This document shows, piece after piece, positions 4,955-40,821 of a stretch of DNA of 64,000 bases. Below the pieces are notes generated by a model. That model was not told the origin of the DNA. It saw nothing but the letters and a program-made list of their open reading frames with translations, and did not search any database. Source of the DNA: Cafeteria roenbergensis. Its lineage: Eukaryota; Sar; Bigyra; Bicosoecida; Cafeteriaceae. The DNA lies in assembly GCA_008330645.1 (NCBI GenBank), contig VLTN01000015.1:248001-312000 (forward strand). The letters are read 5' to 3'. Within the stretch, counting starts at the first letter, position 1; each line of letters starts with the position of its first letter. The position numbers and the translations under genes were made by a program.

Positions 4955-6688
4955 ATGTTGTCGCGTCTGGCTCTCCTTGCTGGGCTGGCCATCACGGCCT
5001 GTGCAGCTCCGGGCCCGGCGAGCAAGGGCGAGCGCGCCGCCGAGGTGGCCGTCCGCACGGATGTGGTGCCCGCGCTCACCTTCTCGCCGCCGTTCGAGAC
5101 CTTCGACTCCGAGGGCGCGCGCACTGCCGGAGATTTCATGCACGGCGGGGCGGCCGACATCAAGAAGAACTACGCGCGCCTGACGCCGGACCGCGGGGTG
5201 AGTGCCGGCTTGGCAGCGCCCGGAAAGCTGGCTTGCGCCCCGCCCACGCGAGGCCGGGGCTTGCGCGCCAATGGGATCGCTTGGGCGTGCCGTGCAGCGC
5301 AGCAGCTGCGCGGTGCGAGCTTGCGGACTTGACGCGTCCCATGCATTCCGCGGCGCGACCCTTGCGCTCGGCTCTCGCTGCCGCAGAGCAAGCGCGGGTG
5401 GCTCTGGAGCCGCGCGGCGACGGACATGGAGGAGTTCACGATGACGCTTCGCTTCCGCGTGAGCGGCCAGGGCAAGCGGCTGTTCGGCGACGGGTTCGCG
5501 CTCTGGGTGACCCAGGATGCCTACCACAAGGACGGTCCGCTCCACGGGTACACCGACACGTTCACCGGCTTCGGCGTGATCTTCGACACGTTTGTCAACA
5601 CTGAGCCCGGGCACGTCCACAAGGACGTGTCGCTCGTCACCAACGACGGCCAGCAGTCTCGCGCCGCGCCCCACGGCGGCGTGAACGACCCCCAGGCGCC
5701 CGGCTGCGACGCAGACTTTCGCTTCCACGAGGGCCGCGACGACTTCAACGCGGCCAAGGCCCGCTCTGCCGCGCGCATTCACTACGACTCCCGCTCCCGC
5801 TCCCTCACCGTCGAGATCGACGCGCGCAACACCGGGGAGTGGGTCAAGTGCATCGACAAGGCGGTTGTGGACCTGCCCGCCGACTGGCACCGCTCCGCCC
5901 ACGTGGGCATGACCGCCACCACGGGCCAGCTGGCCGACAACCACGACATCATCAGCCTGCAGATGCTCGAGGGGAACGGCGTGGTGGCCGACGCCGCCAA
6001 GGAGGCCAGCGAGAACGCCCCCGCAATGATCAGCACGGGGCAGCCCCGCTTCGACGTGGCCGCGCAGACGGCCGCCACGCGCGAGGCGGGCATCGTCAAG
6101 GCGGAGATGCTGGAGCTGCACCACGAGCTGGAGCACCACATGGACAAGATCTACGACGAGCTCAAGCACACCGTGAAGCGGCTGCAGGAGGCCGAGGCCA
6201 AGGTGGAGGAGCGCGTGCGCGAGATCGAGCTCAAGCTGGCCTCGTCCGTCCAGGACCAGGTCGAGCGCCACATGAACCACAACGTACAGAAGAAGGTAGA
6301 GGAGACGGTCAAGGACCGCCTCTCCGACACCGTGAAGCGCTCTCTCGACGGCGCCGTGGCCTCGGCCAAGCAGGGCGTCGAGAGCTCCCTCAACTCTGCC
6401 CGGGACCTCGGCTCCCGCGTCCAGGCGCAGCTGGAGGAGATGCGCACGCTCAGCCGCAACGCCGGCAGCGACGTCACCAACCCCGCGGCGTGGTCGGCCG
6501 GAACCTGGGCGGCAGCCATCTTCGTCGGCATCATCATCGTTGGCGCGCTGGTGTTCCTCTTCGTGCTCGCCCTGGGCGGGGGCGGCGGCAGCGGCGGCCG
6601 CGGCCGTGGACGCCGCGGAGGCGGGGGCGGCGGCATCGGGGGCATCCTTCCGGGCCTCGGCTCTGCCAAGAAGGACCACTTCGTGTGA
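4955..6688 (+). CDS. LMAN1: ERGIC-53/LMAN1-like L-type lectin cargo receptor
   Basis: This is a type I membrane lectin that carries high-mannose glycoproteins from ER to Golgi. There are two exons, 4955-5197 and 5387-6688; the 189-base intron is phase 0 (GTGAGT...CCGCAG). The spliced protein is 514 residues, close to the usual ERGIC-53 length. Residues 1-18 are a signal peptide (LSRLALLAGLAITACAA). The lectin domain spans about 40-270. The splice joins LTPDRG to SKRGWLWS, which matches the family start, and the hallmark GQLADNHDIISLQM is intact. A Glu/Lys-rich coiled coil (about 300-440) forms the stalk, as in ERGIC-53 rather than the short VIP36. One membrane helix lies at about 455-477. The cytosolic tail of about 37 residues is Gly/Arg-rich and ends KKDHFV. 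The two Lys are further from the end than in a classical KKxx signal, while the terminal hydrophobic pair fits an ER-exit signal. Confidence 0.93.
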
Positions 6689-14877: not shown

Positions 14878-17800
14878 ATGGCGAGCGGGGAGCACATTTC
14901 GATCGATGTGGACCAGCTGCACGCTCTCAAGGCCGAGTTTGACAACGTGCGCCGAGGGACCGCTGGTCGCAGACGGGCAGCCGTTGCGCTGCGGCCTCGC
15001 CAGGCGCGCGTTCGTGGCTCACGGCGGCATCCGTGGCAGCTCAAGAGTGCAGCCTTGTGGCGTGGCCAGCCAATGCAGTGCGCGCGTGCTTTGCCATCCT
15101 CGCGCCCCTGCTCGCTTGCCCGCGGCGCTGCTCGCTCGCAGGTGGACGGCGGCCTGAGCGAGGAGGCGTTTGTGCGCAAGTTCTCGCACATCCTGAAGCA
15201 GCCCCCCTCCGAGCTGACGAGGCTCTTCCTCAAGGTGCGCGTCTTGTGCAGGGCGGCGCCGGCGCGGCGCAGCGCTTGCGCGTCCCGGACCGGCTTGTTG
15301 GCCAAAGGCCTCCTTGAGCAACTGCAGCGACCCCGCCTCGCGCCCGCCCGCGAGCCGCCCGCTCGCCGCCGCCGCAGATCGATGCCAACTCGGACGGTAC
15401 TGTGGACTGGTCGGAGCTCAGCACGTTCCTGTTCCTGTCCGGGTCAGGGGCGCCCTCGGACGTGCGGGCGGACGGCGACGGCGGCGCCGGCCTGAACGGC
15501 CAGGTCGTTTTCGGCGCCTCCACGTCCCAAAGCAGCCAAGGAGGGGGCGACGAGCGTGGAGCTACTGGCGGCGCTCGCCGCGCCGCGCGGCTCGCGGCGG
15601 CGCAGAGCGGGGCCGGCGCCGGCCGCGCGCGCGCCAGGCAGCTGCTCGGCGGCGGCGACGGCATGAGCTCTGCCCGAGAGCAGGCCGAGGCGGCCAGGCT
15701 GGGCAAGGCGGTCACGCTGGCGGGGCTGCAGCTCACGGCCGTGTTCGACGCAATGGCTCGGGACACTGTCGCTCAGGCTGCCGCAGCGTCGCTCGGCGCG
15801 GCGGGCACAGCCGGCGGCTTCGCCGGGCTGACGTCGCCGCGCGGCGGCCCGTCGTCGACCGCCCTGGTAGCCGGGGGCGCGGGGCCGACCACGGCCGTGG
15901 CCCGCTCTTCGAGGCTTCAGTCGGAGAGCGCTGCGCAGGCGGAGCGGCGGCGAGCAGCGGTCCAGGCGGCCATCGCGTCCAAGCTCCCGCTCACCACTGC
16001 CACCCTCCGCATGGCGGTGGTGGGGGGATCCGGCGTGATGTCCACCCGGGCAGTGACGGGCCGCGGCTCTGCCGGCAGCGGCGACGGGCTCGTTCCCTCG
16101 GTGGCGCAGTGCAACTCCAGCGGTTTCGTGGCGCGCCTTCCGGAGGGCTCGGGCCACAGGGACCTCGTCTCTCGGCATATCTTTGTGCCGGGCTCCCGGC
16201 AGGGCCGCGGTTCCGCGCTGATGGGCGTCGGCGCAGGCATCCGGCACGCGGGGGGCGGAGCCGTGGGTTCCGGCGAACCCGCGACAGAGATGGCAGATGC
16301 CGATGACACCGGCATTGCTCGCGCGTCGTCGGCCGATCGCTACATCACGTCTGCGGACGACGGCACGGTGTGCGTGTGGGACGTGTCGGCGACGTCGGGG
16401 GCGCTGTCCAGGGCGCTGGCCTTCTCGTCCGGCAGAGCTGGCCCGGTGGGCCTCGCCTGGCTGCACCGCTCGGCTCTGCTGGCGGTCGCCACTTCGCGGT
16501 CTGTGTCGCTGTACGAGCTGAGCCCGTCAGTGGGGGGTGCGCTGCTTCGCGGGCGCATCTCGGCATCGCACTTTAGCAGCGCCGCTCTCACATGCCTCGC
16601 TGCGTATGTGCGGCGGGTGCCGGAGAGCGCCCCCCCGGCCGGAAGCGACAACTGGAGACATAAGCACAAGCAACAGCGCAAGCAGCAGCAGCGGCAGCGG
16701 CAGCAGGCAGCGGCGGCGGCGGCGGCAGGCCAGCGGCCACTGTCGCCGAGCGCCGGCGGGGATGCTGACGCTGCCACTGTCGGCTCGCGGGTCGGTGCTG
16801 TCGCGGCAGCGACTGGCCCCGCATCGCCGAGCGGCCGTCGGCGCAGCGTGGGATCAGGCAGCGTTCACGCGCAGCGCAGGCCGCTGTCTCCAATGTCTCG
16901 CGCGTCGTCGACCAACACCGGCAGAGCACCTGGGGCCGATGCCAGGGCCGACCACCCCCACGCCGACACCCAAGCCAAGTCTGACTTGGAGGAATCAGCA
17001 TCCATCATCAGCGAGTCTCTGGACGGTCGCACAGCGGCGCAGGTTGCCGCAGAGGCCGTGGAGGCAGCGAAGCGAACGGCGTTGGCCATGGCCACGCAGC
17101 AGCAGCAGCAGCAGCAGCAGCGGCAGCAGCGGCAAGCGGGAGGCGCTCTGGGGGCATTCCCCCAAGACGGTGGCAGCGGCATGGGGGGCGGCTCGGGCGA
17201 CCCTCACGAACGAGCCACCGGCGGCGCTGGTGCTGGCGCCGCCTCTGCCGCAGCTGCAGCAGGAGTCAGGGGCGGCGAGGGCGGGCAGGGCGACTTCGCT
17301 CCTGGGCCCAACGCGCACGCTGCGGTTTCGCCGCCCCCGCGGCGGACGCGCGGAGGCCGGCTGTCAGACCAGCGCAGCGTGTGGGAGGAGGTGCTGCTGG
17401 TGGGGACGTCGGCGGGGGACCTGTGGAGGGTGGTGCTGCGGCCGGGCTGGCACATCATCACGCTGGCAGAGGAGCCGAGCGAATCGGCTGAGCGCGAAAC
17501 AGAGCATGCGATCGACCAAGAAATGGCGAAGCGGTCAGCTGACCGGCAGCGGGCGGCCCACGAGGCTGCTGGCCTCGTGCGAAGGGGGCGGCTGCAGGCG
17601 CAGGCCTCGCGAGCCACGCGAAACCGTGCGGGCGGGTCCTCGGACGATGTTCGTGAAACTGCGCTTCAGGCGTCGCCGATACGCTCTGGAGGGATCGCGG
17701 ATCCTTCCGCCAGGGTATCCGGCAGAGCTGCTTCGTCCCGCCGTGCGCTGGTGCCGTCGGCCACGCCGATGCGGAAGCCGTCCCGCCCTGGCGTGCCCCG

Positions 17801-20800
17801 TTCAACGCACGGCGCAGGGCCCCTTCGCGGCCAGGCGGGCAGAGCCGTCGACCCCGCGGGCCGCGGTGCCTCGCCAGCACGTGCCTCGCTCACGGACGTC
17901 CCTCCAGAGGGCGCGACGGTATCCGGCGCCGCTGCGGGCGCCGCCTCCGCCGCCGCCACGGCCGCCGCCGAGGACGCGGACGTGGAGGCTGCCTGGGCGG
18001 ACACCGACCTTCGCTCCGCCGACGACATCCGGCGTGCTGACGAGCGAAGCCGCAGCGCGGAGGCCGCGGCTGTCGCGAAGGTGGTTGCGGACGCAGAGGT
18101 GGCAGAGCTTCACCCAGAAGAGACCGGCAGAGCCGACGCGATCATCGCCGCGGCGGTGGAGCGCGCGCGCGAGACGCTGGAGGGCCGGGCGCTCCGGACG
18201 CAGCAAGCGACGGCGGAGATGCGCAGCCGCGCGCAGAGCGACGAGGCGGCGACGCGACAGCGCCCCGGCGGCAAGAGGGGGCGGGGCAAGAGCGAGGACG
18301 ACTCGGGCGGAGGGAGCGACCGGGACTGGGACCCGGAGGCGGGGAGAGGCGCGGACGGGGGCAGCGGGGCCGCCGAGGGCGGCGGGTCGCCGTTGCCTGG
18401 GGAGACGAGCGCCGGCGGTCGCGGGCGCGCGGGGCGGCTGAGCAGGGTGCAGGGCCGCCGGCCGGCGGAGGAGACGCTGGCGCAGGGGCTGGGCGCGCGT
18501 GCGGGGGCGCGCGTTGGTCGGCAGCACATTGAGAACGTGTGGTTCGAGCGAGTGGCAACGCACAGGGCTGGCTCTGCCGTGAACCCGAGGCTGCTGTTCG
18601 ACGGGGACGACGCGCTGGGGGGGTCGGGCTCCGGCCCGGCGGTCAGCGGGATGGGCGCTCCCCGGGCCACGGGTGCCGGCGACGGCGGCGGGGGCGGCGG
18701 GCGCGGGGGCGGCGCCAGCAGCAGCAGACGGGGACGCGGGCATCGGCGGCGCAGCGGCGACGACGACCACGCTGGCAGCGGGGCCGATAAGTCGGACAGG
18801 AGCGTTACGGCCGTGGCGGTGTTGCGGGGCGCCGGCGGCATCGCCGTGGCCGGTGACAACGGCGTGGTGGTGGTGCTGGAGGAGGAGCGGCTCAAGCCGG
18901 CGTCGCACCTCCTGCTGACGGGGCCGGTGTCGTCGCTGGAGTGGAGCCCCCTGCAGCGCCTCCTTGCTGTCAGCGGGGCGTCGCGCGACGTGGTGCTGTG
19001 GTCGCCGTGGGACAGGCAGCCGCCCACGGCGCTGCAGGGCCATGCGGCCCGAGTGACCCACACCGTGTTCGCGGACCCCCTGCCCGTGGCCGTCTCTCTC
19101 AGCAGGGACCTCACTGCCTGCGTCTGGGACCTTCGATCCTTCCGCCGCCTTCAGACCATTTCAACCGCAGCCATCATCGGAACCGCCGTCGCTTCCGCAG
19201 CCTCGGGCGCCGGCGGATCGCACGAGAACGACTCAAAGGATCCTTCCGCCGCTCCAAGGGCAGAGCTACTTCGTGCTCTCGACGTCTTGGCAGAGCGATG
19301 GCTCCCCTTCGTCCACGTGAACACCCGGGCAGAGCCACCGTTCCTCATGGCAGCCGGCAGAGCCATCGTACAGTGGCCGCTGCGACCGGCAGCGGCGGTG
19401 TCGCTGTCCACGTCTGCGGCTTTGGGCGGAACTCCAGCTGCAGCGGCGGCCGCAGCGGCGGCGGCGGCGGCGGCAGCAGCGGCGGCGGGCGACGCGGCGG
19501 CAACGTTCCGCTCAGCGCTCTCCAGCGCAGCCAACGCCTCGGCGATTCCACCCAAGGTGCGCGCCCTCGCAGCGGCCGGCCTCACAGGCGGCAGAGCCCT
19601 CGGGGACCCGGACGAAGTGGCCGCAGCGGCGGCGGCAGGGGTGCTCTCGGAATGGTCGATTCGCGGCGCAAGAGAGCCTCTGCCGGCAGAGCTTCCCGGC
19701 TACGTTGGAAGGTCCGGCAGAGCGCGATCGCCGCGTGCGCAGAGCCCGCGGGCAGAGCTGGAGACAAGGCAGCTGTCAACCCGTGCCAGCTCACGAAACG
19801 CCAACACATTGCGGCGCGGAGCCAGCCGTCTCGGTGCGGTTTCACCGGAGACCGTCAGCCGATCAGGCACGGCGGGGAGCCGGGCCGGGCATGGCTCCAG
19901 AGCGCATGGAGGCGGTGACGTGGCCGGCGGCGCGTCGGACGCAGCCGCGGATGCCACCGCAAGCGTCGAGGTCGCTGCCCCGACCGACCCTGCGGCTCCC
20001 CCCGGCGTTGTGGGGGCGACGCCGCCCCTGTCGCTGGGGCCGCTCGCGCCGGTGGGTTCGGCGATTTACAACCCCGCCTTTCACGAGATTACCGTTGCGG
20101 AGCGGGACGGGGTGGTGGTCACCCTGTGGCAGGCTTCAAGCGGCAGCGCCACGTCGGCGTTCGCGGCGCGAGGAACGGCCTTCGGGGCCGCGACCACTGC
20201 CGCCGCAAGGGCCGGCCTGGGCTTCGTCCCCGGCACGCGGCACAGGACCAGGGGCGGAATCGGGGCTGTGATGTCGAGCTCAAGCGGCGGCGGCAGGGCT
20301 GGCGGCGGCGGCGGGGCCGGCGGTGGTGGCGGGGCCGGCGGCGGCGGCGGGGCGCTGGTGGGCGGGGCCTGGGACACGCAGCGCCGCGTCACGGCATCGA
20401 GTGGGTTCACCGAGCAGAGCCGCGCGGCACAGCTGCTTGCCAGCTCTGCCGCTTCGTCCACGCTGACGGCGGTTGCGCTGGACAACGAGGGGCGGCGCCT
20501 CGTGGTGGGAGGCTCCGACGGGCTCACCGTCGCGCTGATCAACCCGAGCAACGGGGCGTTGCTCGGCGAGGGGCTGCTGGTGGGAGATGCGCGCGGCTCC
20601 GCCATGCTGGACGGGAAACCGCTTGACCGCGTCGCGGCCGCGCAGGCGGACCCGGTGGGCGCTGTGCTGTGCGTCACCCGCGTGACGGAGTGCTCTGCCG
20701 GGGGCTCTGCCGCCGGGGGCAGCGGGTCGGGGCCGTCGTCGGTGTCGAAGCTGCTTTGCGTCGCCGTGGGCCGCCGCGTGTTCGTGTTCGACGACAGCGG

Positions 20801-23800
20801 CGGGGACTCTGCCGACGGCTGCGTCATCTCGACCATCGACGACGCCCTCTCCAACGGGCGCTTGGGCCTGGGCATGGTGGGCCGTGCCGGAGGGGGCGAG
20901 AACTTTGCGACCGGTCACGCTGGGGCGGCGGCAGAGCCGGAGGACGGACCTGATGCGGCGGTCGAGAGGGTTCAGTGGGAGGCCTCGGAGGGGGCCCTTG
21001 TCCGCGCCGCTGCAGCGCAGGGCGTCACCCCTGCGGAGTTGCAGCGGACTTGGCAAGCGGCAAGGGTCCGTCGGGGAAACTACCTCCGAAGCCAGTCGCT
21101 CGTGGAACAGGCCCAGGCAGCCAGGGCGGAGCGGGGCGCGAGGGACGCTCAGAAGCGGCGCCGGCGCCAGCAGCGCAGCCGCGCAGGGAGGAGCGACCTG
21201 TACGATCCCGCTGCTGGCTCGGAGCACGGCGAGGCAGACCGTGACGGTGACGGTGACGGCGACGGCGACGGCGGGCTGCGGCTGGAAGGCGGCGGCGGCG
21301 GCGGCGGCTTGCACAGCGTGCTGTCGGTGGGGGACGACACAGAGTTTGGCGACGACGCCGGGGACGTGGGCGACGCCGCCCGGGGTGACCTTGGCGACGG
21401 CGTGATCCGTCGCCGGCCCATCAGAGTGGCGCCGGCGGGGGGGCTGCAGACGGGCCCCGCCTCCAGGGGCGGGCGCGACGACGCTGCCTCAGGGGCCGCC
21501 GGCCGCCGCCCCCGCGTGGCCGGCCACCTCCCGGGCTCGCGAATTACCTGCATGGTGATGCTGGACAGCGTTTGCGTCGCAACGGGCGGCACCGATGGCG
21601 CCATTCACCTCTGGAGCACTGCAACGGGCAGGCACGAGCGGGCAATCTTTGTTCCGCCTGGGCCGGCTTCACGAGGACTCGGCGGGGACGCCGACCTGAC
21701 CGGAGCGGCTGACCGCCCTGCCGTGCCGGGCGGCGTCGCTCCAATGCTCTTGGAGTCGTCGCCGCCAGCCGTCACGGCGCTGTGCGTCCTGACGTCTCAC
21801 AACGCGCTGGTGGCAGGGTTCGAGGCGGAAGGGTCGGGAGGCGACGACGTCGGCCTCGCAGGCACACCAGCGGGGCGCAGGGCCTGGGGCCGAACGCTGG
21901 CCCCGGGACTCGTCAGCTCTGCCGCCGACGGGAGGGCGCCCCTGCAGGCGGCGGCTCTGCGCCTGTGGTCCATCGACGACTTGACGCAGTGGATCGCGCT
22001 GCCCAGCGCGCCGCCCGTGCTGCTGGTCCCGTCGGCAGGGCGCGGCGCCGGCGGGCAGAGCCCGTATCGGCAGAGCGACACCGAGGCGGACGAGGCCGGC
22101 GCGCGGCCCGTGGTGTCGTGGCGCTGCGCGGGGGTGACGTGCCTGGCCGCAGCCGACGGAGGCAGCGGCCTCTGGGTGGCCCTCTCTGACGGCACGGTGA
22201 CGCTGTGGGAGCCGGCGGTTTCGTCGCCGGCGACGGCTTCGTCTCGGTCATCGCAGGTGTCCGCTGCGGCCGGCGCCGCGAGCGGCAATGCAGCGGGCTC
22301 TGCCGTGGCCACGCTGGTGCGGGAGGGCGTGCTGCCTCTGGCACACCCGCTGTCGGTGGCGCTGGCCACGCTGTCGAGCGTCGAGGACGACCACGAGGCC
22401 GCGGCTGCGAGCGCTGCTGCTGCAGCGGCGGGGGCCGAGGGAGGGCAGAGCAGCTTCCGGAGCGCAGGCGCGGGGGATGCTGTGCCGGGCGCTGGGCGGC
22501 GGGGGGCCAGGCGCAGGCGGGCGTCCGCGCTGCTGCTGGAGGGGGGCGCCGCGGCGGCTGCTGGGCTGGCCAGCGCGGGGGCGAGCGGGACTGGGCCAGG
22601 CGCCGGGGGCAGCGCCGCCACGGCCGGGGCGGCCGGCGGTCCGAGGAGGGGCTCCGTGCCGCCGCTGCTGCGGCCGTCGGTTTGGCGAGGCGCCCAGTCT
22701 CCGAGGTCGACCGACGCAAAGTTCGCGCCACAGGGCTTTGGAGCGGCGCGTGGCTCTGCCGCGGAGGCGTCCGCCCGGCCGCAGTCGGCGTCGCCGCGCG
22801 GCTCCGCCGGCCGCCCAGGGTTCGAGGACGAGGACCACCACCAGGCGCCGCTCCTCCCGCTGGCCAGCTGGATCGCCCACCACGGCGCAGTCAACTCCGT
22901 GTCGCCTGTGTCCGGCCCCATGCTGCTGGACACGTTCGTGCTCACGGCGGGGGAGGACAGACGGGTGATCCTGTGGTCGGAGAGCGGCCTCGCCGTCGGC
23001 TGCCTCGGCACCAACCACTCTTGGCGCCTCGAGCGACCGTCCTCCTGGCTCCAGCCGCCCGCCTACCACTCTGGCTTCTTCGTCAGCCCGCTCCGTGCGT
23101 CGCTCTGCGGCCCCGTGGCCGTGGCCGACGACTTCAGCGGTGCTGTTGGCTCTGCTGGCAGAGCCGCAGCGGGGGCGCAGCAGCAGGGGACGGCCGGAGG
23201 CGCTGGGGGGGCGATGGTGCCTTCGCGGCCGGGCAGGAGCAGGACCCGCCGTGCCAGCGTGGCCGATGCTGCCGGCCGCTTGCTGGTCGTGGGGTCGGAC
23301 GACGGGTGGGCTGCCGGCGCCGTCGCCTACCCGTCAGCTGACGCGTCTTCGGGCGCGGTCGTTGCTGCCGGAGGAGGCAGCGCTGTGGCCGCCTCCATGC
23401 CCCCGCCCGGCCCCGCCGGAGGCGGAGGAGGCCGGTCCAGCCGGGCGACGTGGGCGCGCGTGCCCGCCCCGGGGCAGGTGTGGGCGCGGCGGCGCGTGGC
23501 GGGCGGGCCCATGCAGCGCAGAGCCTACGCCGCCGCCGTGTCAACGAGCGTGGGCGCCCAGGACGCGTCGGACGCGGGGGGGTCTCCGCGCGCGGCCGGG
23601 GCGAGTGGCGCCTCTGGTGCACCGGCTGGCTGGGCTGCGGGCGCGGGTGCCGGCGGGGCTGCTCCTGGCAGCACCACGGCGCTCTCCGCGTCCTCATCGT
23701 CAACGTCCTCGGGTCCGGCACCGGCCGGCGCTGGCGCTGGCAGCGACGGGGCTGGTGCAGACGAGGGCTCTGCCGTGGAAGTGCTGCTTCGACAGCGGGG

Positions 23801-26800
23801 CCTGCTGGGCGGTGCGGTCGACGACCCGCTGGCGAGCTCGACGGAGCAGCGTTGGCGGCAGCTGCAGCCGCTGGAGCAAGGCGTGTGGGCGGCGGGCGGC
23901 ACCAGCGCCTTCGACGTGGCGGCCATCACCCGGCTTGTCACCGTGCTGCGGGTGACGCGCGACGACGTCGTGGTGCTGGACGGCAGCCCCGGGTGCGGGT
24001 GCGAGGGTGGGCTGCGCACGGTGTTCATCCCGCTGTCCGAGTTCACGCAGCCCGACCCGACGCGCGTCGACCCATGGATGGAGATCCCGTCGCTCACTGC
24101 GAGGGTGGCTTGCATATTCCGGGTTCTGCTGTCAGAGGAGGAGAGCAGGGCGGCGATGGCGGCGGCGGTGGCGGCAGCGGCGGCGGAGGGGGAGCAGCAG
24201 CAGCGCGGCGAGGGCGTTGCGGGGGCAGCGGGGGGGTCCCGGTCGGGCGCGCCTGCTGCCGCGGCCGGTGCCTCTGCCACTGCTGCTGGCGACAGCCGGA
24301 GCGCGCTGTTCGCCGGGTTCTACGGCTTGTCCCCACAGGAGCGGCTGAGCACGCCGTTCAAGGTGCTGTCGGTGGCCGTGGGCACGGCGGCGGATATGGA
24401 GGCAGAGGTGTCCATCACGTCCATCGGCGCGCTGGCTGGCGTGGCAGCAGGGGCGGGCGTTGATGAGTACGACGATGACGATGAGGAGGAGGAGCTGGGA
24501 GCGGCGGCTGGCGGTGTGGCGGGTGGAGGCAGCGCGGGGGCGTCGGCAGCCGGCCCGTCTGTCAACGACGAGGACGACTCGGCGTCGCACGTCGACCACA
24601 CTGCCGGCTTTGGCTCTGATCGCGACCACGATCACGGCGATGACGACGACGACGAGGGTGCTGGCAGCGTCGCAGGCCGAGGCGGCAGGCGAGCTGGCCG
24701 CCACGGCAGGCTGAGAGCCGGCGCGGACGAAACCGCACGGCGCACAGGCGCGAGCCCAGATGCCCGGGAGCGAAGGGACCGTTCATCTCCCGACCATCAC
24801 GCATCCATCACGGCGGCAAGTCCCCGCGGCAGAGGAGCCGACGTCGCTTCGCCCGGGGCAGCGTTTCCCATCGCGGTGTGCGGCCGGACAGGGCCCAGCG
24901 GCCCGCCCAGCATCGTCTCTCATTCCTCGCGGCGCACCTCAGTCGCCTCCCAGGCCACGACTGTCAGCAACAGCGCGGGCCGCTCAAGCCGCGCGGGCAA
25001 GGGCAAGAGGCGGCGGCGCGGCCGCCTCGCAAGCATTGTGGCCCTTGACGGGGCGGCGACGTCGGCCGAGCTGCGCGGCCAGCTGATGCGAGCAGAGGCC
25101 AGAGCGGCATCGGTCGGCCTGCTGGCTGACTACGCAGACGAGAGCGCCGAGAGCAAGGCGGGCGCCGCGGAGGGCAACGCTCGCGCCGGAGAGGCCGGCA
25201 GAGCGGCCAATGGGGCCCTGAGGCGGGCCCCGACCACGAGCGGCGGCGCTGCCAGCGGCGGGCCCGGCAACGGCAGCAGCAGAGCCGCCGGTGGCCCCGG
25301 CCGGCGCACCCCTTCTCGCCCCCGCCAGCACGGCCCAGCGGCCAAGCCGCCCCCCCGGAACATGTTTGGTTCCGCGCAAACATCCACGACGAGGCCAGGC
25401 ATCGCGGCGCCCCCCCGCCGGCCCGCCCCGCCCGCCCACCGTGGCTCCACAGCGTCAACCGCCGTTGGCGGTTTCGCGCCCTCGGCGGGCCAGCTCCCGG
25501 CCGGCCGCCGGCCGGACCGCGCCCCTCGCAGCCAGGATTCGGCCTGGCTCCGCTCACAGCTCCGCATCTTCGTCAGGGACACCCAGGGCAGAGCCTTCCC
25601 GCTGCCGCGCCTCCATGGCCCGCCGGCGGAGCCGCGGGTGGAGATGCCGCCTGGCCTGGCCAAGCTGGCCGACGCCGCTGTAGCCGCCTTGGAGAGGGCG
25701 GTCGAGGCCGCGACCAAGGCCTCCGCCGCGCCTGCAGGCGGTTCCGCAGCCGCTGGCGACGCGGGACCTGACGCGGGGCTCGCGAGCACGGATGCGGAGA
25801 GCGGTGGTCCACGGGCCGGGGCGGCGGCGGACAGGCCGCGGCGCGGCGTGACGACGGACCTTGCGTCGACCTCGCCTGTCGGCGCAGGGGGTTCCACCGG
25901 CCGCACCGCAGCCGGGGGCGCGAGTGGCGCAGGGGCGGAGGACGCGCACGGGTCCGTCGGGGCCCGCGCGGCGCGCATTGGAGGTCACTGGAAGCCCTCG
26001 GCGCGGGGACTGAGGCCGGCGGGGCATGCGGCCGTCCTCGCGAACCGGCTGAGCAAGGCGCGACGGGTGCGGCATAGCGACGAGGACGGGGACGGGGACG
26101 AGGACGAGGACGCCGAGGAGGACGCCGAGGTCAGCGGGGCAGGTGCCGACGGGGCGGGCGCTTTCGCCGGCGCTGGTGGTGCTGCCGGTGGCGGGGGCGG
26201 CACTGGCGGGCGCCGAAGGCGCAAGGCCCCTGTGCGCACTCGGGCTGTAGTGGCCCTCGAGAAGGCGGTCCCAGGCTTTGCTGAGGTGTGGTGGGATGAG
26301 CTGAGCGCGCGCTCGCAGCGGCATCGCGCGACGGTCGCCGCAGCAGCACCACCCCAGGTTGCGCGTGGCTCTGCCGCCGCTGCAGCTGCTGCAGCTGCAG
26401 CGGCGGCGGCTGCGACCCCGCCTCGGCTCGTTGGGGTGGTTCCACCTTTGATTCTTCCGCCCCCGCTGCCGTACGTGCCCCGCCGGGGCATCAGCGTGTT
26501 CCGTCACGACGAGCGGATGCGGGCCGAGTACCGCCTCACCTGTCAGCGTCGCATCACTGCGTGGATTGCGTCGCTCGAGGACGCGCTGGAAGGCAGAGCC
26601 GGCGGCAGCAGAGCCGGTAGGCAGGCTGCAGACGACCCTTCCAGGCCCAAGCTTGAGGCCCGACTGTCCGCTTCGCAGGCTGCTGGAGCTGGGCCGGCCG
26701 GCGCAGGCCGGTCCGACGGGGCGGCCGGATCTGGCGCGGCCGCCGCCTTGGCGCTCGCCGCTTCGAGGCAGCGCCGGTCGGCAATGGAGGAGGACTCGTC

Positions 26801-28292
26801 GCGGAGGGGATCGGCCTCCTCCTTCTCCACGGCAGGGCCCTTCGTCGCGGGCGACGGGGCCCTCGACCACGCGGTCGGGTCGCCAGGCCGGTCGCCAGGC
26901 CGGCCGACGGACGGTGATCGGCGTGGCTCCAGCTCCGCGGCGTCGGTCGGAGGCGCCTCGCTCGCGTCGCGCCACGGGCGCGCGCCAGTGCCTCAGCTGC
27001 GCCTGGGAGGCGTGTCTTCCGCCTCCAAGGCCAGGGCCGCTCCGCGCGCCGGCGACGGCGGGTCGCTCTCGGCCCGGCTCGGCCTGCCCCTGTCGGAGGC
27101 GGCGCTGGCGGGGTTCGCAGACGGGGCCTGGATCGACGCGCTGGCAGAGCGACACGCGCAGGACGTCGCAGCGGCAGAGCTAGACGAGCAGAAGGCCGAG
27201 GTGCTGAACAAGCGCCTCACGGAGGCAGAAAAGGCAGCCGTGTCGCTGGTGCTGGGCGGGGAGCTCGGAGACAGGGTGCAGGCCGTGGCAGCGCCGGCAG
27301 CCTTCCTCGGCTACTCGGCGGCGGTGGGCATGTCCACGGGCCGGGAGAGGACGCCGGCGGGACGGGGGCGCGGGGGCAACGCGCCGGGATCGGCGAGAAG
27401 CGAAACCGCCGCCCGGGGAGGGGGAGGGGCCGCCGGGAGCACCGGTGGCGCCGGCGTGGGCTGCGGCAGCCAGGTGGCACGAGAGCTGACGCTGGCCGCG
27501 GCGGACGCCCTGTCGGCTCGGGCTCCGTTCGCGAGCCAAGCGATGCGGCGTCAGGCAGGCGAGGGGGCTGGCGCGTGGCAGAGCTGGGACCTGGGAGCAA
27601 CGGGCAGAGCCGGCGCGGGCGGATCTGGGGCTCTGTCGGCGCGGGCGCAGCTCGGAGGCAGCAAGCGCGGAGCCGGCGGCGGTGGCGGAGCGGCGGAGGA
27701 CTCGTCGCTGCTGCCGCCCCGCGCGCTGCGGTGGACAGCCCAGCAGGCCCTGAGCGCGAAGCTGCGCCGCCAGCGGGAGGACGCTGCGGCGGCGGGGACC
27801 AGCGCGCCGGGCTGGGGAAGGGTCCTCGGGGGACGGGGCGGCGGCCGCTCGGCAGAGCAGCGGCTGGTGGATGACGTCCCCGTGCAGAGCTTGAACGCGA
27901 CCGCGGTGCCGGCAGTGCCTCGAGACTGGAGAATGACCCTGCCGTCGGCAGGCATCGTCACGACGGACATGTCAGCGGCAGCTGCGACGGCGGCAGCTGC
28001 AACGACTGCGACGTCGGCTGGAGGCGGCGGCGGTCCCGACAGGGGCGGCGACCAGACCGGGGGCCTGCGCAAGGCCCGTGACGGGGCCAAGAGGGCCTCC
28101 GAACGGGGCCGAACGGGCCGCGTAGGGGGTCGAGCGGGCGGCTCTGCCAGCTCTGCCGGCTCTGCCAGAGCCGAGGAGGGAGAAGGGGAGCCCGAGGCGC
28201 CGCGACACGTTCCCCACCGCATGCTCGCGCTGGACGAGGCGCTGAGATCGGAGGTGGCTGCCGAGATCGAGGCGCGCCAAGGCGGCTACTGA
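14878..28292 (+). CDS. Giant EF-hand/WD40-repeat protein, WDR49/WDR64-like, 4,358 aa
   Basis: There are three exons: 14878-14946, 15142-15234 and 15378-28292. Both introns are phase 0 and use GTGCGC donors (195 and 143 bases). The splices assemble an N-terminal EF-hand pair. The second loop, DANSDGTVDWSE at residues 56-67, has every calcium ligand; the first is degenerate. WD40 repeats are scattered along the protein: near 16340-16385 (DGTVCVWDVS), 18805-19025 (DVVLWSPWD), 19085-19150 (DLTACVWDL), 21540-21630 (DGAIHLWSTATG), 22135-22215 (DGTVTLWEP) and 22875-22980 (DRRVILWSE). Long disordered Ala/Gly/Ser/Arg segments lie between, with a Gln run at 17097-17130 and acidic stretches near 24465-24490 and 26080-26135. 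EF-hand plus WD40 is the layout of WDR49/WDR64-type proteins (often axonemal), but those are about 700-1,100 residues. The last exon, 12.9 kb, has no stop. It carries an extreme density of the octamer GGCAGAGC (see findings). Confidence 0.85.
17095..17132 (+). repeat. CAG run encoding polyglutamine
   Basis: About ten CAG codons, with some CGG interruptions, lie in the giant WD40 gene and encode a Gln-rich stretch. A shorter CAG run lies near 16680-16710. Confidence 0.85.
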
Positions 28293-30015: not shown

Positions 30016-31102
30016 ATGGAAAAGCAAGGCGGCGGGACTTCGTTCCTCGGCTCGCGCGGGTGGAAGCGGAGGTGAGGTGCATTGCAATCCGGTAGTGAAC
30101 CTTGGCGCGCAGCCGCCCCAGGGTCACGGCCCCACGGCCCTGCTGCTCGCATAGGCTTCGGCGTACCCATGCGCTTTGACCGGCCAAAAGCTTGGCCCGG
30201 GGGGACTCACGTTGTGCTGCGCCTCGTCCCGTCGGTTGTCGCTCCTCAGGTACGTGGTCATCAAGGACAGAAAGTGGTCTGTCTTCGAAGCCGACCCGAT
30301 CGGCGGCAAGGGCAAGCCCCTTTCCAAGAAGGGATACGACGACATGCCTTGCCGCGACTTTGAGGCAAGCAGCGACGAGCTGACCGTGCTGCTTCACCCG
30401 CGTGATGGGGGCAAGGACTTCAAGTTCCGCGTTGGGGCCGGCGAAGGCGCCTCCGTCGCCAGCGAGTGGGTGCGCGCCTTCCGCCTCAACGGCGCCACCG
30501 CCCCTGGCGCCCCTGCTCCGGAGCCCGAGCCCGAGCCTGAGCCCGCTGCCACGGAGGAGCCTGCAGCCGCCGCGGCAGCGGCAGCTACTGCCACGGAGGA
30601 GCCCGCCGCTGTCACGGAGGAGCCTGTCGCTGCCGCTGCCACGGAGGAGCCCGCCGCTGCCACCGAGGAGCCCGCCGCTGCCACGGAGGAGCCCGCCGCT
30701 GCCACGGAGGAGCCTGTCGCTGCCGCTGCCACCGAGGAGCCCGCCGCTGCCACGGAGGAGCCCGTCGCTGCCGCTGCCACGGAGGAGCCCGTCGCTGCCG
30801 CTGCCACGGAGGAGCCCGTCGCTGCCGCTGCCACGGAGGAGCCCGCCGCTGCCACGGAGGAGCCCGCCGCTGCCACGGAGGAGCCCGCCGCTGCCACGGA
30901 GGAGCCCGCCGCTGCCACGGAGGAGCCCGCCGCTGCCACGGAGGAGCCTGTCGCTGCCGCTGCCACCGAGGAGCCCGCCGCTGCCACGGAGGAGCCCGCC
31001 GCTGCCACGGAGGAGCCCGTCGCTGCCGCTGCCACGGAGGAGCCCGCAATGGACGCTGCAACCGAAGAGTCTGCTGCAGATGCCGCCGAGGCCACTGGCT
31101 GA
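30016..31102 (+). CDS. PH-domain protein with (ATEEPA)n tail, 302 aa
   Basis: This small protein has an N-terminal pleckstrin-homology domain, which normally binds phosphoinositides or a protein partner at membranes. There are two exons, 30016-30071 and 30250-31102, with a 178-base phase 2 intron (GTGAGG...CTCAG, the only acceptor here lacking GCAG). The splice joins GWKRR to YVVIKDRKW, the classic first strands of a PH domain. The domain runs to about residue 100 and ends with a helix carrying the invariant Trp (SEWVRAFRLNG). The rest is a low-complexity tail, first EPEPEPEP and then many near-perfect copies of ATEEPA separated by AAA or V. The tail is probably a disordered acidic spacer. 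No catalytic domain is seen. The closest comparisons are small one-domain PH proteins, which do not predict a specific role. Confidence 0.85.
30547..31062 (+). repeat. Coding tandem repeat, 21- and 30-base units
   Basis: Units of GCCACGGAGGAGCCCGCCGCT (21 bases shown as 20 plus the final T) alternate with a 30-base form that carries an extra GTCGCTGCCGCT piece. Copies are nearly identical at the DNA level, with only ACG/ACC and GCC/GTC changes. This points to recent expansion by slippage or unequal exchange. Confidence 0.85.
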
Positions 31103-32170: not shown

Positions 32171-35100
32171 ATGCTTCGCGAGGATGCTCTCGCCGTGATC
32201 CGGAGCCAGGCCGCCCAGCAAGGCGTCATCTCATGGGCGCGGGTGGAGCAGCTGGCGTGGTCGGGATCGACGCCGCCTCCCATCACTGCCCGCATGGCAC
32301 TCGTGCGCATCGTCCGGGCAACCGGCAGTGATTTAGTACTCTGCGCATCTATGGAGCCGGGGGCACCTGCGGTGAGAGCCTGCAGCGCACCTGGCCACGG
32401 AAGCCAAGGCCCGACAGTTGCCCTTAGCCCAACCTGCGGCCCGGATGCGCTTCTCACCGAGCGATCCAGTCCCTTCCCGGTGTCAAGTGGGCTAACATCT
32501 CGCAGGTTTCGTCGGGTGCGCGTCGCCCACAGCCATGGGCTTCCCCGGAAACTCGTGAGTGCGTGACTCGTCAACCGTGCATGCAGCGCCCCGGCGTCGC
32601 AAGCAGCCCAGCCCCCAAGCCCAACCTCTGCGGGCGTTGTCTCACACCCGCAGACTCTGTGCAATGCCAGTCGCTGGCCCGCTTCCTCAAGGAGCTAGGC
32701 GCCTCAAACCAGGTTGACAAGCAGCTCATCGCCTTGTTTGCGAGTTCCGGCACGAACTCTTCACTGACATCGCGAAAGCTCTTCCTGCCGGCGCTGCGAA
32801 TCATTGCCCGGAGGGGCGCTTGGCGGCCCTCCCTGAGGTACACGCACATGCCTGAGGGCATGGCGGAGCTAGAACGAGCCGCCGCCCTCAACGCAAGCCT
32901 TTTCCGTGACGGAATGCTGGCCGCCGCAGCCAAGCTGCCGGAGGTGCATGCTGGGCTTGCCGACTGCAGCACCCAAGTCGCAGACGCGGCCAGGTTCTTC
33001 GAGCAGCACGCGCGCTCAACTGGCCGCCATTCGAAGCCTCGGGCAGGGACGGCCAGCGCCAAGTGGACAGACGCACTCCTCTTGCTGGAGCACACGAGGA
33101 AGGTTCTCGCAGCGGTCGTGAGTCTCGAGGCGCCCGCTCGCGGCACTGCTTGGGCGTTGGACTGCAGCGCCCCGCTCATTTTGATGGCCCAGCGGCGTCT
33201 CATTTGCCGTCCGCTTTGCTTGCCTCGCAGCCGGAACAGCTGCTCGGTCTGGATGGAGGCTTCACGGAGCGGCTTCAGGCCGGGCGCAAGGTGGCCGAAC
33301 ATGACGCTCGCGACGGCCGGACGGGCCGCTCATCGGATACCATTGACACTGCTGAGCCTGACGCAGACGCGACTATCGGGTCGTTCTCGCAGCCGGTCAG
33401 GCTGCTCAAGTGAGCCCACCAAGGCCATTGTAGCCGCGCATGACTAGCAGCCCCAGTCTCCGGGCATGCTGCGTCGCCATGGGGCGCCGCAGAACGCCTT
33501 CACAGGGCTTTGTCTCGGACCACGTGCAGGACGCCTTCGAAGCCGAGACCCCTCGTTTGCTGCTCGTTTATCCACTTCCCTCCCCCCCGCTCCCCTCCGC
33601 TCCCCCGGCCTCCCTACCCCTTCCGCTTCCTGCAATCGTTGCAGGCACGTCCGCATGGTCCCAGCGCGAAATCACCGGGTTAGTGGCCGTCGCATCACCT
33701 CAACGCTGGCTGCCGCTGCAATCAGCAGCGTTCTTGGGCCAGGTGACCAGCTGCTTGGGCCGAGGCGAGCCTGGACCACCGACCTGCTGGAGGCAACCCG
33801 CGTCACCGAAGTGAGCTCCGCGAGTCGGACGGTGTCGCAGTCGCTGCCCAAAATGCTGGATCCTGCGACGGCCGAGTTTGGCTCCGTGTTCCGGCTGCGC
33901 CAAGTGGGAGGCGGGATCCCGACAGACGCCTTCGTCAAGGTTGGTGGGTCGCCCGCCGCGAGCCTGGGAGGGCTATCCCCGGGAATTATCGGCCCTGCAA
34001 TTGCCCGTTTGGGCCTGCAAAGCAAACGCGTCGGACGAAAGGGCCGAGACCGCGCGTGGCTGGCTGCTGTCGTCATCCCGGTGGGGTGCTTCACAGGCGC
34101 GCATGACCTTGATGCCGTGGACCCCCGCCTTCCCGGCATCCTCGGTGCGCGGGCCGGGAACGCGCTGCTGCCGCCAGCCATCGCACAAGCGCCGCTCGTC
34201 GGCGAGCTCGGCGCCGGCTGCCATTCGCAAATCAGCCTTCAGCGCCACAGTCCCTCATGGAACGACGCTGCGGTCGCACTGCACGCTGTAGCAGCCATGC
34301 GGGCGGCTGCCAGCACTCGGCTCGGCCTCTCCCCGGGGTGGGCGGCGCATGCCCTGGCCCCTCACTGCGCGGCTGCCCCCACACCGCCAAGGGCTCCGTC
34401 TCGCGCTGGTGTGGGCTCGACTGCCGTGTCTGGTCTCGTTCACTGGTCTGCCGACGCCCTGCTAGTCGGGCTCAGCCATGGTTGCAATCTTGGGCCTGCC
34501 GAGCTGTGCCGTGGGGTCGGAAGCATCCGCCACAGCAAGGACTTGACCCAGTTTGACCCGGTGCGGCGCGCCCTTGCCGCCACCGCTGCCAAACGGCCGA
34601 CATCTCAACCCTGGAGCTCAGCTGCGCAGCATGAAAGGCTGGCCCTTCTTCTGGCTCAGCCGTTCTCGCCAGCCGCCCTAGCAGCGTTTGTCTCGGGGGC
34701 CTCCGCCGCTGGCACAGGCGTGGCGGCTTGTGCGGGCAGGTGGCCGACCCACCTCGACCCCCGGCCAGTTCCAGTGCCGCCTGTGTCCTCGGCGTCATGG
34801 CTTTCGGCGCTCAGCGCGCCCGCCTTGGCTGATGGCGCTGCGGGCCTGGAGACTGCGAGCACGAGTACGTCGACACCTGCCGCATCCGAAGTCCCGGCGC
34901 TGAGCCCGCTGACACAAGATGTGGTCACCTTCGCAGCAAGAGCAAGAGCATCTTGTGCATCGCACCGGCTGCCTCGCAACTTGTGGCGGCTGGCAGCTGC
35001 CGGTGCTGCCCTGGCACGATACGGCGCCTTGTGCCTGACCAACATCGCCCGATTGGTCCAGCCGCCGGCAGACTCGCCAGTTAGCCAGTTCATGTCAAAC

Positions 35101-38100
35101 TTTGCTGCTTCGATGCAATGGAATGGCCTGGCCGAATGCTGGGAGCAGGAGCTGTCGTTCAAGCCTCGGAAGGCGAGCGGCTTGGCAGCAGAGGCTCGCG
35201 CAGGCGGGCGAGATCAAGCGAGCGTTATGGTTTTGTGCCGGGGACCAGACTGCCGTCCTGGCAGCGTCAGCTTTGGGGCCGCAGTCTTGGCAGGCAAGGC
35301 GAGGCACGGCCGCAAAGGCTTGGACGTTGGACGCCTTGTCGATGTGGTCTTTGGAAAGGCAACCCGCTTGTCTGCTTCGGCCAGCTTCGAGAAGCAGGCC
35401 AGCCCTGGCCTCTCGCGGAGTGAGGCCGACGCCGCAAGCAAGCCTTGGGCAGGGTGGCTGCGCGAGATCGCGGACAAGGTCAAGGCAGGGATCATTGGAG
35501 CCGACGGAAAGCCGGTGCCTGCCAAAACTCTGCAGCTGGTGGATATGCAGCAATTTCCGTTGCGCGTGCGGGCGATGAGTGCCAAGCTACTGGCAGCGAC
35601 GTCGGATGGGCAGGGTGACTCCGCGCTCTTGGCTCGTGGCGCTGGCCGAGGCGTGCAGACGCGCCCCCAAGCTCTCGAGCAGCTGCTGCGTGTGCTGCTG
35701 AGCGCGCCTGCTTCGCTGTCGCTTGGGGCAGGTTCGTCGCCTCCTTCGTTGCTGCGCGCCTTGCTGACTCGAGGCCTTCGAGTGTCGGATCTTGGCTCCG
35801 AGTTGAAGGCACGTCTTGGTGCGCTGGCGGAGCCGATTCCGCTTGGAATGGTCTCCTTGTTTCAGGGCCGCTCGGTAGATGCAACAAAGCCTTGGATTAG
35901 CAGCCGCTCGGCCAAGGACCTGCTTCGCTTCGGATCAGTTGCCAAAGCCAAGACACTGTTCAGATTCGCGCTGCTCGCAAGGCAGCTGGCCGGCCTTGCG
36001 GAAGCCACAGACCCCCAGATTGCGCGCGAGTTCGTGGGCAGCATCCCCGAGGCAAGCCCAGGCATGCCCACCGGCTATGGCAGAGCCGACGTCGTCGCTT
36101 TTCTTGCAGAGTTCAAGCGCCTGGCGCAGGAGAAGGGCTCTGTCTCGTTCCGCGACGTGATTCGTCTGATGCCGGTCGGGCAGGTGTTTGCGTTGCTCGG
36201 TCTGCCCGGGCTGCAGTCCAGTGGTCGCACACTGCCACTCCTGGCCTCTTCAGCGAGGGCGCTCGTCAAGGAGCTGGAAGCTGTCTTCCCGGGGTACAAC
36301 CGGCCCAGACCAATTCGCTCGGGGTTCGTTCACGCTGGGCCGCCCCTTGGCCTAGTGGCAGACAGGTGCGACCAGCGAATCGGTCGCACTGCTGCGCTTC
36401 GGCAAACGGGAGGCGCTGGCACCGGTGGCAGCGGCGCCGCAGCCGGCGAGCTTGCAGACTCCGATGCCGACAGCAACGACGACGAAGGCAGCGAAGCTGA
36501 TGAGGTTGACGACGACGACGAGGACGTCGTTGACGACGAGCAAGAAGACGGCGTTCAAGATGAGCAAGAGGACGAGTTTGACGACGACGATGAGGACGAG
36601 GGTCCTGAGGAAGACGACGGTGGCCACGAGGAGGACTTCGGCGATGATGATGACGATGCTGGCAGCCAGGCTTCTTTTCGGCCAGGCTCGGACGGGTCGA
36701 GCGACGACGACGACGACGACGACGAAGAAGAAGTCGATGGCGACCGTGCGCATGCCACGCCCAGTCGAACAGGCGCAGGCGGTGGCTGCAAGGCGTCACC
36801 CGCTAGCACTGGCGGCAGCAACCTCACCGATGTGCTTTGTCAGTTTGCTGAGCCGGCAGTGTCGCTCCTGGCACGAACGGGCCTTGTGAAGCTTGGCGGG
36901 TGCTCTTCAGAGCCCAGGGCCATGGAAGGCCTGGCGCGCAAACCGATTTGCAAGGTCCGCGCCGTGCCAGACGTGTGCTCAGCCATTGGACTCGCGCAGC
37001 AGGACCTTCAAGCGCTGTTTGGCGATGCGTGGAAGCGCGGCTCGAGCCGGGCCGGGGACGGCGCCGCCGGGGGCGCGGGCGCAGCTCCAGTCGAGGTTCC
37101 GGCGGAGCTGCAGCTTGACTGGAGTGGCAGCTGCCACCCGCCAGTTCTGTCGGAGGATCTCCTCCAAGCTCTCGGCGCGGCACCAGCACCAGCGGCCGAC
37201 GACAAGCGCCCGCACCGGGACGACGATGATGTCTCGTGCTCCCAGGACAACCCTGACGCAGTGGATTGCCTGTTCGGGCGTTTCGCAGACATCCTCTGCG
37301 TGGCTTCGGGCACATTCGAGTGGCAGATGCCGTACTTGCGCGGGTCCCTGAACGCCTTGCTTGTCGAAGGGCGGCAGGCCGCCTCCACCCAGCCAAAGTC
37401 CTCGCCAGACGTGCGAGAGTTGCAGGATCGGCAGAGGGACAAGTCGTTCTTCGAGGCAGCCGTGCACCAGATCGCTTCCAGGGAGCCGCTGTCCGGTGCC
37501 GTGCGCCTCAAGGACGGGGTGACGCTCCTGGGCCTGAGCAGCTTTGTGCCAGGCACTGACGTGGAGGTGGCGGCAGCAATGACGTGCGGGCCCGTTGCGC
37601 CGTCGCGGAGCGACTTGGCTCACCTCAGGCGTGGGCGCGGCCTATCGCCGCGAGTCGCGTTGGCCCGCAGCATCCCGAGGGGTGACCGCGTCACCGGCGG
37701 CCTGGTTTGCCGGTTCGGCTTGACTGCCAGGGAATTTGTTCGCGGTCTCGCCCTGCCCATCATCCTGGGGCCACTGAGGCTCGTCTCCAGCAGCAGTGAC
37801 TTTCGGGGTCTCTTCGCTGTTCACATCGGAGCAGCCACTGCTGAGGCTGGCCGGTTTATGCAGTGGCGCGCAGCCAACACCCGCAAGTTCCTCTCGTCCG
37901 CCACCGCGGCGCTGCCTCGGGCGTGGGAGCGCGCTCTCCGGGTCACTCACCGGCGACTCACGGCTGGGCGTGTTCCAGCCGATGACTCGGCTGAAACGCG
38001 CAAGCGCTTTGACGCCGGGGTGCGAGAGCTGGACAGCCGGCTGCAAGAGGCGCTGGAGCGCACCGAGGGCAGGGTCGTGCTGAGGCAACTGGTCCCGGAG

Positions 38101-40784: not shown

Positions 40785-40821
<37 letters not shown>

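Follow-up and report, generated by a model that had tools for sequence, protein, structure and literature searches.

The 64-kb stretch of contig VLTN01000015.1 that we analysed (the window) carries a giant WD40 gene at positions 14878-28292, in which one exact octamer, GGCAGAGC with its reverse complement GCTCTGCC, recurs far more often than the encoded protein and its codon usage account for. The window has a guanine-plus-cytosine (GC) content of 70.3% and is eukaryotic, as judged from its introns and from a UBE2O-type ubiquitin-conjugating enzyme at 46771-52008 recognised by Pfam. Both the GC content and the intron-bearing genes are similar to the values that passages of PMC6972860 give for a Cafeteria flagellate (about 70% GC, 1.67-1.89 introns per gene).

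For the giant WD40 gene we infer two short exons and a long last exon starting at 15378, on the basis of gt..ag borders visible in the DNA:

14878-14946, + strand: putative first exon of the giant WD40 gene, with ATG; MASGEHISIDVDQLHALKAEFDN; gt donor at 14947, read from sequence
15142-15234, + strand: putative second exon of the giant WD40 gene, 31 codons; ag/gt borders read from sequence
15378-28292, + strand: putative long last exon of the giant WD40 gene, about 12.9 kb uninterrupted; from the open frame, the coding segmentation and Pfam WD40

An open frame runs from 15318 to 28292; the coding segmentation, for which four window genes including the WD40 gene served as the training set, marks 15364-28289 as coding. 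The long exon has WD40 matches above the Pfam cut-off as well as long low-complexity linkers, and the six solved structures matched by the gene are all of the WD40-propeller type. An EF-hand-like start of the long exon was recognised by eye only and is not listed by Pfam.

The exact word count gave 34 copies of GGCAGAGC on the + strand and 24 of its complement GCTCTGCC, 58 in the window altogether. The WD40 gene holds 41 (27 GGCAGAGC and 14 GCTCTGCC), all of them in the long last exon, and the rest of the window 17, which bears out the original prediction of about 41 in the gene and about 16 elsewhere. The copies are spread over the exon, with the octamer present in 28 of its 43 bins of 300 bp, and are placed as follows:

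15667-28166, both strands: array of 41 exact octamers GGCAGAGC/GCTCTGCC, from the exact word count
GGCAGAGC on the + strand (27 copies): 16431, 16920, 17721, 17838, 18101, 18126, 19259, 19289, 19328, 19356, 19590, 19685, 19716, 19751, 20930, 22054, 22069, 22444, 23157, 25197, 25587, 26592, 27143, 27173, 27577, 27603, 27851
GCTCTGCC read on the + strand, with the word on the - strand (14 copies): 15667, 16066, 18571, 20443, 20692, 20704, 21916, 22297, 22753, 23767, 26368, 28141, 28150, 28159
19259-19758, + strand: densest cluster, eight GGCAGAGC copies, all on +, the first four spaced 30, 39 and 28
28141-28166, - strand: three octamer copies at 9-bp spacing, the clearest local duplication

The local groupings described earlier are largely real. 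The eight-copy cluster and the pairs at 20692/20704 and 22054/22069 were recovered, and the three copies towards the end of the gene are present, but 123 bp separate their end at 28166 from the stop codon, so they do not lie at the very end. The inverted pair described near 23149-23165 contains one exact copy (23157), while its partner, GCTCTGCT, has a different final base. Separately, we observed that 23148-23165 and 28158-28172 form short perfect inverted repeats, each made of the octamer and an adjoining near-complement.

We then asked how many copies the protein and its codons would give by chance. The codon-preserving shuffle called for in the original prediction, which keeps the protein and the codon use, gave 2.9 ± 1.7 copies with a maximum of 9 in 1000 shuffles, compared with 41 in the gene. 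Shuffling within blocks of 300, 120, 60, 40 and 20 codons gave 3.8, 4.4, 6.8, 8.2 and 14.4 copies, and the maxima in 300 shuffles were 12 for 60 codons and 23 for 20 codons. The small blocks overstate the expectation, because they offer few alternatives and the motif's own codons tend to stay put. For the window as a whole, dinucleotide shuffles yielded 10.9 ± 3.5 copies (largest 20 in 100), compared with 58. Counted on both strands, the octamer reached a log10 P of -30.7, whereas the best 8-mer of fresh shuffles had a median of -3.6 and a minimum of -6.0 (n = 150). When the sense strand alone was ranked, GGCAGAGC came first among the 8-mers of the gene and its exact reverse complement GCTCTGCC second. 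The best 8-mers of six other window genes had log10 P values between -3.3 and -5.0. When each gene was compared with 60 shuffles of itself, those of g3414, UBE2O and g1025 passed the 5% quantile and none of the six passed the extreme; nothing in these genes is comparable to the octamer.

The word might also be an artefact, whether of the amino acids in the protein, of preferred codons, of local composition or of a foreign origin of the gene. The protein is indeed rich in A, G, S and R, which makes compatible peptides common, and the long exon has a GC content of 75%, above most other coding segments of the window. However, the codon-preserving shuffles, global and in blocks, fall far below the observed count, and in codon usage the gene does not stand out within the window: its distance from eight other open reading frames (ORFs) is 0.058-0.126, within the range of 0.054-0.184 among those ORFs. 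The shuffles ruled out a peptide repeat or codon bias as the cause, and a foreign gene bringing its own word found no support in codon usage or dinucleotides. We consider the chance of such an artefact close to negligible. The earlier claim that a protein repeat cannot explain the octamer, and that the signal lies at the DNA or RNA level, survived all the nulls that were run, and the excess suggests a second, DNA-level signal written into protein-coding sequence.

To express this excess per opportunity, we listed 84 compatible sites, that is, places where the WD40 protein permits the octamer, and found it used at 41. Use by peptide class was 13 of 21 for GRA, 4 of 4 for [GWR]QS, 10 of 17 for xAEx, 14 of 41 for [GSCR]SA, 0 of 1 for ALP and 0 of 0 for LC. 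The word thus stands on the + strand in GRA (13), QS (4) and AE (10) and on the - strand in SA (14). Both orientations occur, as had been predicted, and the copies spread over four strand/phase classes instead of sharing a single frame and orientation, but the claim that all codon phases are used went too far, since four of the six classes are occupied. The absence of the ALP and LC classes says little, because their compatible peptides number only 1 and 0. With codon frequencies taken outside the octamer copies, the odds of use are raised 50-fold on the + strand (27 of 42 sites) and 40-fold on the - strand (14 of 42 sites). As the odds are similar on both strands, the orientation excess is what protein and codon use permit. 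Along the long exon, the odds in six bins were 32, 71, 33, 52, 15 and 68.

Elsewhere in the window the excess is mild, while in the WD40 exon it is very strong. In nine other ORFs pooled, which are mechanical ORFs with unverified gene models, 12 of 106 sites are used where 4.0 are expected, giving odds of 3.5. Taken singly, the octamer is used at 4 of 40 sites in g3414, 3 of 13 in UBE2O, 1 of 12 in g1135, 2 of 13 in g829, 2 of 3 in the ORF at 5426-6688, and 0 of 25 in the other four. The two copies at three sites in the small ORF 5426-6688 hint that other genes may be enriched, but are too few to judge.

This uneven distribution bears on the main rival of a binding-site array, a mutational or repair drive, HIP1-like or resembling an uptake bias, which would make and protect the word while the copies have no local function; the WD40 gene would then be merely the most permissive or the most exposed target. 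The HIP1 word of cyanobacteria lies largely inside genes, and the DNA uptake sequences (DUS) and uptake signal sequences (USS) of bacteria are not palindromic. In the parts of PMC4390886 that describe it, HIP1 is a highly iterated palindrome, GCGATCGC, an exact octamer far above expectation. Its proposed origin is a methyltransferase together with biased mismatch repair, and that of uptake sequences is biased uptake. In being an exact octamer found on both strands and in several phases, the present word resembles HIP1; a section of PMC4390886 models biased repair for HIP1. The excess of 12 against 4.0 in the other ORFs agrees with a drive as well. A force that also changes amino acids would in addition fit the excess of compatible peptides described below. 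However, a process acting in trans should act everywhere, and the odds are about 45 in the exon and 3.5 in the nine ORFs, at similar codon use. Nor are one-mismatch forms depleted overall (56 against 41). Because the codon usage of the exon is ordinary for the window, its concentration of copies would need explaining under a HIP1-like drive. We rate this rival as unlikely.

The likeness to known words also has limits. GGCAGAGC, like HIP1, is exact and strongly over-represented, but HIP1 is a palindrome, bacterial and counted genome-wide, whereas GGCAGAGC differs from its own reverse complement GCTCTGCC, is eukaryotic and has 41 of its 58 copies in the 64-kb window concentrated in a single gene. 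Like DUS/USS, the octamer is a short, non-palindromic word present in both orientations within a gene. In Neisseriaceae and Pasteurellaceae, according to excerpts of PMC2346458 and PMC1939737, such sequences lie in both orientations inside genes, one being commoner in the reading frame; PMC2346458, in the part at hand, further gives hundreds to thousands per genome and ties them to natural competence. The present octamer differs in being gene-focused within the window and in lying in a eukaryote. Chi, which belongs to a class of recombination-guiding oligomers named in a passage of PMC4390886, is likewise short, exact and over-represented, but it is bacterial and required for RecBCD-mediated recombination. 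HIP1 and the uptake sequences are the nearest known kinds, and the octamer is assigned to neither family. Among eukaryotic systems, nematode pairing-centre repeats and yeast gene-recruitment sequences are clustered, locus-specific binding motifs, mostly non-coding and with known factors. They share with the octamer short motif copies that mark one locus, while the octamer lies in coding sequence.

The edges of the word are sharp. Of the eight bases beside it, four per side and compared by eye, seven are near the codon null and one, the second base downstream, is not (A in 10 copies, 3.8 expected); the flank pattern [CG]...[CT] claimed earlier is close to what amino acids and codon use give. 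Flanks of different copies match at 6.10 of 20 positions, where 6.44 are expected, and single-mismatch forms are in slight excess (56 against 41 expected), far below that of the perfect word. The octamer is thus exact and 8 bp long, and the flanks, near the codon null and unlike among copies, indicate an exact site rather than a decayed longer repeat. A longer repeat with the octamer as its core was ruled out, as flank similarity is lacking, except perhaps within the close groups at 20692, 22054 and 28141, whose copies may share sequence beyond the core. No 3- to 5-mer with at least five copies stood out at a fixed distance within 40 bp as part of a composite site. At any distance within 40 bp a few words scored, the best being CCCCCTA (3 against 0.01) and CCCCTTC (6 against 0.48); because the flanks of the three copies at 28141-28159 overlap, a single stretch enters the count three times there.

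As a further account, a micro-mobile element or slippage may have spread the octamer through short insertions or through duplications nearby, with frame-preserving copies kept by selection; the spacing of neighbours speaks to this account. Fewer than 50 bp separate 12 neighbouring pairs, compared with 8.2 simulated at the observed odds (p 0.10, not significant), but all 12 share the same orientation where 5.5 are expected (p 0.0008). Part of this same-orientation excess comes from local duplication at 28141/28150/28159 and 20692/20704, perhaps also at 22054/22069, and compatible peptides are about 25 in excess. In contrast, outside the 8 bp the copies have no sequence in common, the length of the word is not divisible by three, and Tandem Repeats Finder reported no array of the octamer. 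Pure insertion, moreover, predicts about 59 sites without the word and 100 in all, while 43 and 84 were found. We consider such spreading improbable. The remnant mobile repeat and the gene-expanding repeat offered in the original prediction are poorly supported for the same reason, that the copies lack common flanking sequence, and the three groups just named are the only possible local duplications.

Strand symmetry bears on the choice between the DNA and the RNA level. A single-strand RNA signal, such as a microRNA seed, a site for an RNA-binding protein or a splicing enhancer, predicts enrichment of the sense word alone, whereas both words are enriched. Alternatively, the two complementary words may pair inside the messenger RNA (mRNA), offering 27 x 14 possible 8-bp duplexes that would compact the giant transcript. 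This would account for the enrichment of both words and for the position of the array in an exon, and the native exon does fold to -7442 kcal/mol against -7385 ± 30 kcal/mol (1434-nt chunks summed, 12 codon shuffles). However, the gain of 1.9 standard deviations is weak. Forms that could pair through G-U (13 against 9.0) show no extra enrichment over other single-mismatch forms (43 against 32.1), and none of the 12 neighbouring exact pairs below 50 bp is inverted, although 23157 has an inverted near-copy beside it. We regard pairing within the mRNA as improbable. The strand symmetry, together with the lack of any special excess of wobble variants, favours double-stranded DNA over RNA, and recognition of double-stranded DNA is the simplest reading.

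We propose, with a probability of roughly 0.4, that the long exon carries an array of exact 8-bp sites for a putative sequence-specific DNA-binding factor, achieved partly through synonymous codons. The factor would read double-stranded GGCAGAGC in either orientation, from sites overlaid on the coding sequence. At G-R-A, x-A-E-x, G-Q-S and G/S-S-A, the less-used codons AGA, TCT and GCA would be picked to spell GGCAGAGC, and some copies probably arose with amino-acid changes in tolerant linkers. A protein that binds the octamer might serve the gene body, through chromatin state, transcription through the 12.9-kb exon, or tethering or pairing of the locus. If the copies are kept by selection at mutation-selection balance, odds of about 45 would translate, for each site, into a scaled coefficient of about 3.8. 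The local strength of the signal would favour local selection, because trans-acting repair should touch all genes.

Several observations weigh against this proposal. The other ORFs show an excess (12 against 4.0) as a genome-wide process would give, and two small samples are high, with odds of 12 in UBE2O (3 of 13) and 30 in ORF 5426-6688 (2 of 3). Compatible peptides are themselves in excess, 84 compared with 59 ± 7 in shuffled proteins, and in block shuffles too, so synonymous choice explains only part of the pattern; the observed number lies between the predictions of pure synonymous choice (about 59) and pure insertion (about 100). This excess is not to be pressed, since GRA is ordinary among its own permutations (AGR 22, GRA 21, RAG 20, RGA 12, GAR 8, ARG 7). 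In eukaryotes, binding sites are as a rule degenerate, but the single-mismatch forms exceed expectation only slightly. In non-coding DNA, where a site would escape coding constraint, there are 3 copies in the 13.3 kb found across the window and none in the introns of the WD40 gene or in its short non-coding flanks, the flanks being too short to decide. Finally, the binding protein itself is putative.

A second octamer, GAAACCGC with its complement GCGGTTTC, is dispersed over the same exon:

16120-27409, both strands: weaker dispersed octamer GAAACCGC/GCGGTTTC, 8 copies, at 16120, 17322, 19836, 20615, 22215, 24729, 25468 and 27402

After the first octamer was masked, the 8 copies of GAAACCGC compared with 0.5 expected (log10 P -7.1), beyond all 150 shuffles, and they occur in both orientations and in more than one phase. 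With 8 copies, the evidence is weaker than for the first octamer. Two of the gaps between copies, 17322-19836 and 22215-24729, are exactly 2514 bp. A bolder form of the binding-site proposal, which we hold to be doubtful, is that a eukaryote may mark a single giant gene by a non-palindromic, exact octamer address in its coding DNA. A dedicated DNA-binding factor would read this address either way, codon choice would keep it at about half of the permitted positions, and GAAACCGC would be overlaid on the same exon.

Other features of the window were noted in passing. A second giant uninterrupted ORF at 33466-43710 (3414 aa) has acidic stretches; its best 8-mer, CGAAGCAG, occurs 9 times against 1.3 expected, past the 5% shuffle quantile but not past the shuffle extreme. 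A tandem array at 30543-31027, with periods of 21 to 90 bp and a unit like CCGCTGCCACGGAGGAGCCCG, lies inside a segment called coding, and a 170-bp unit is repeated 2.5 times with 98% match at 53310-53734.

No relative was found when viral contigs and prokaryote genomes were searched with the WD40 region as a protein query, or viral contigs with the UBE2O-like protein, as expected because the DNA is eukaryotic. Rfam at gathering thresholds gave no match in the window. We also scanned for the octamer pattern itself, as close direct pairs and triples in viral contigs and as triples in prokaryote genomes, with at least 120 stretches each. Among the matches listed (349 distinct loci), the best has the octamer in 6 bins of 300 bp, compared with 28 of 43 in the exon. 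As a whole word, the octamer or its complement matched in the literature, in the text indexed, only a paper on asporin in breast cancer. A general literature search gave nothing similar in the titles and abstract starts among the matches listed, which does not imply that such a word is unpublished.

Over-represented exact short words are known from bacteria, where they are tied to repair, recombination or DNA uptake. If the proposal holds, an octamer for which one exon shows, on either strand, a preference of about 45-fold at permitted sites, and the neighbouring genes a far smaller one, would constitute a gene-focused DNA code laid over the protein code. The array would offer a clean measure of selection on synonymous sites. 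Should long genes throughout the genome prove to be enriched in the octamer, eukaryotes would have a counterpart of HIP1 in which the question of drive versus function could be tested.

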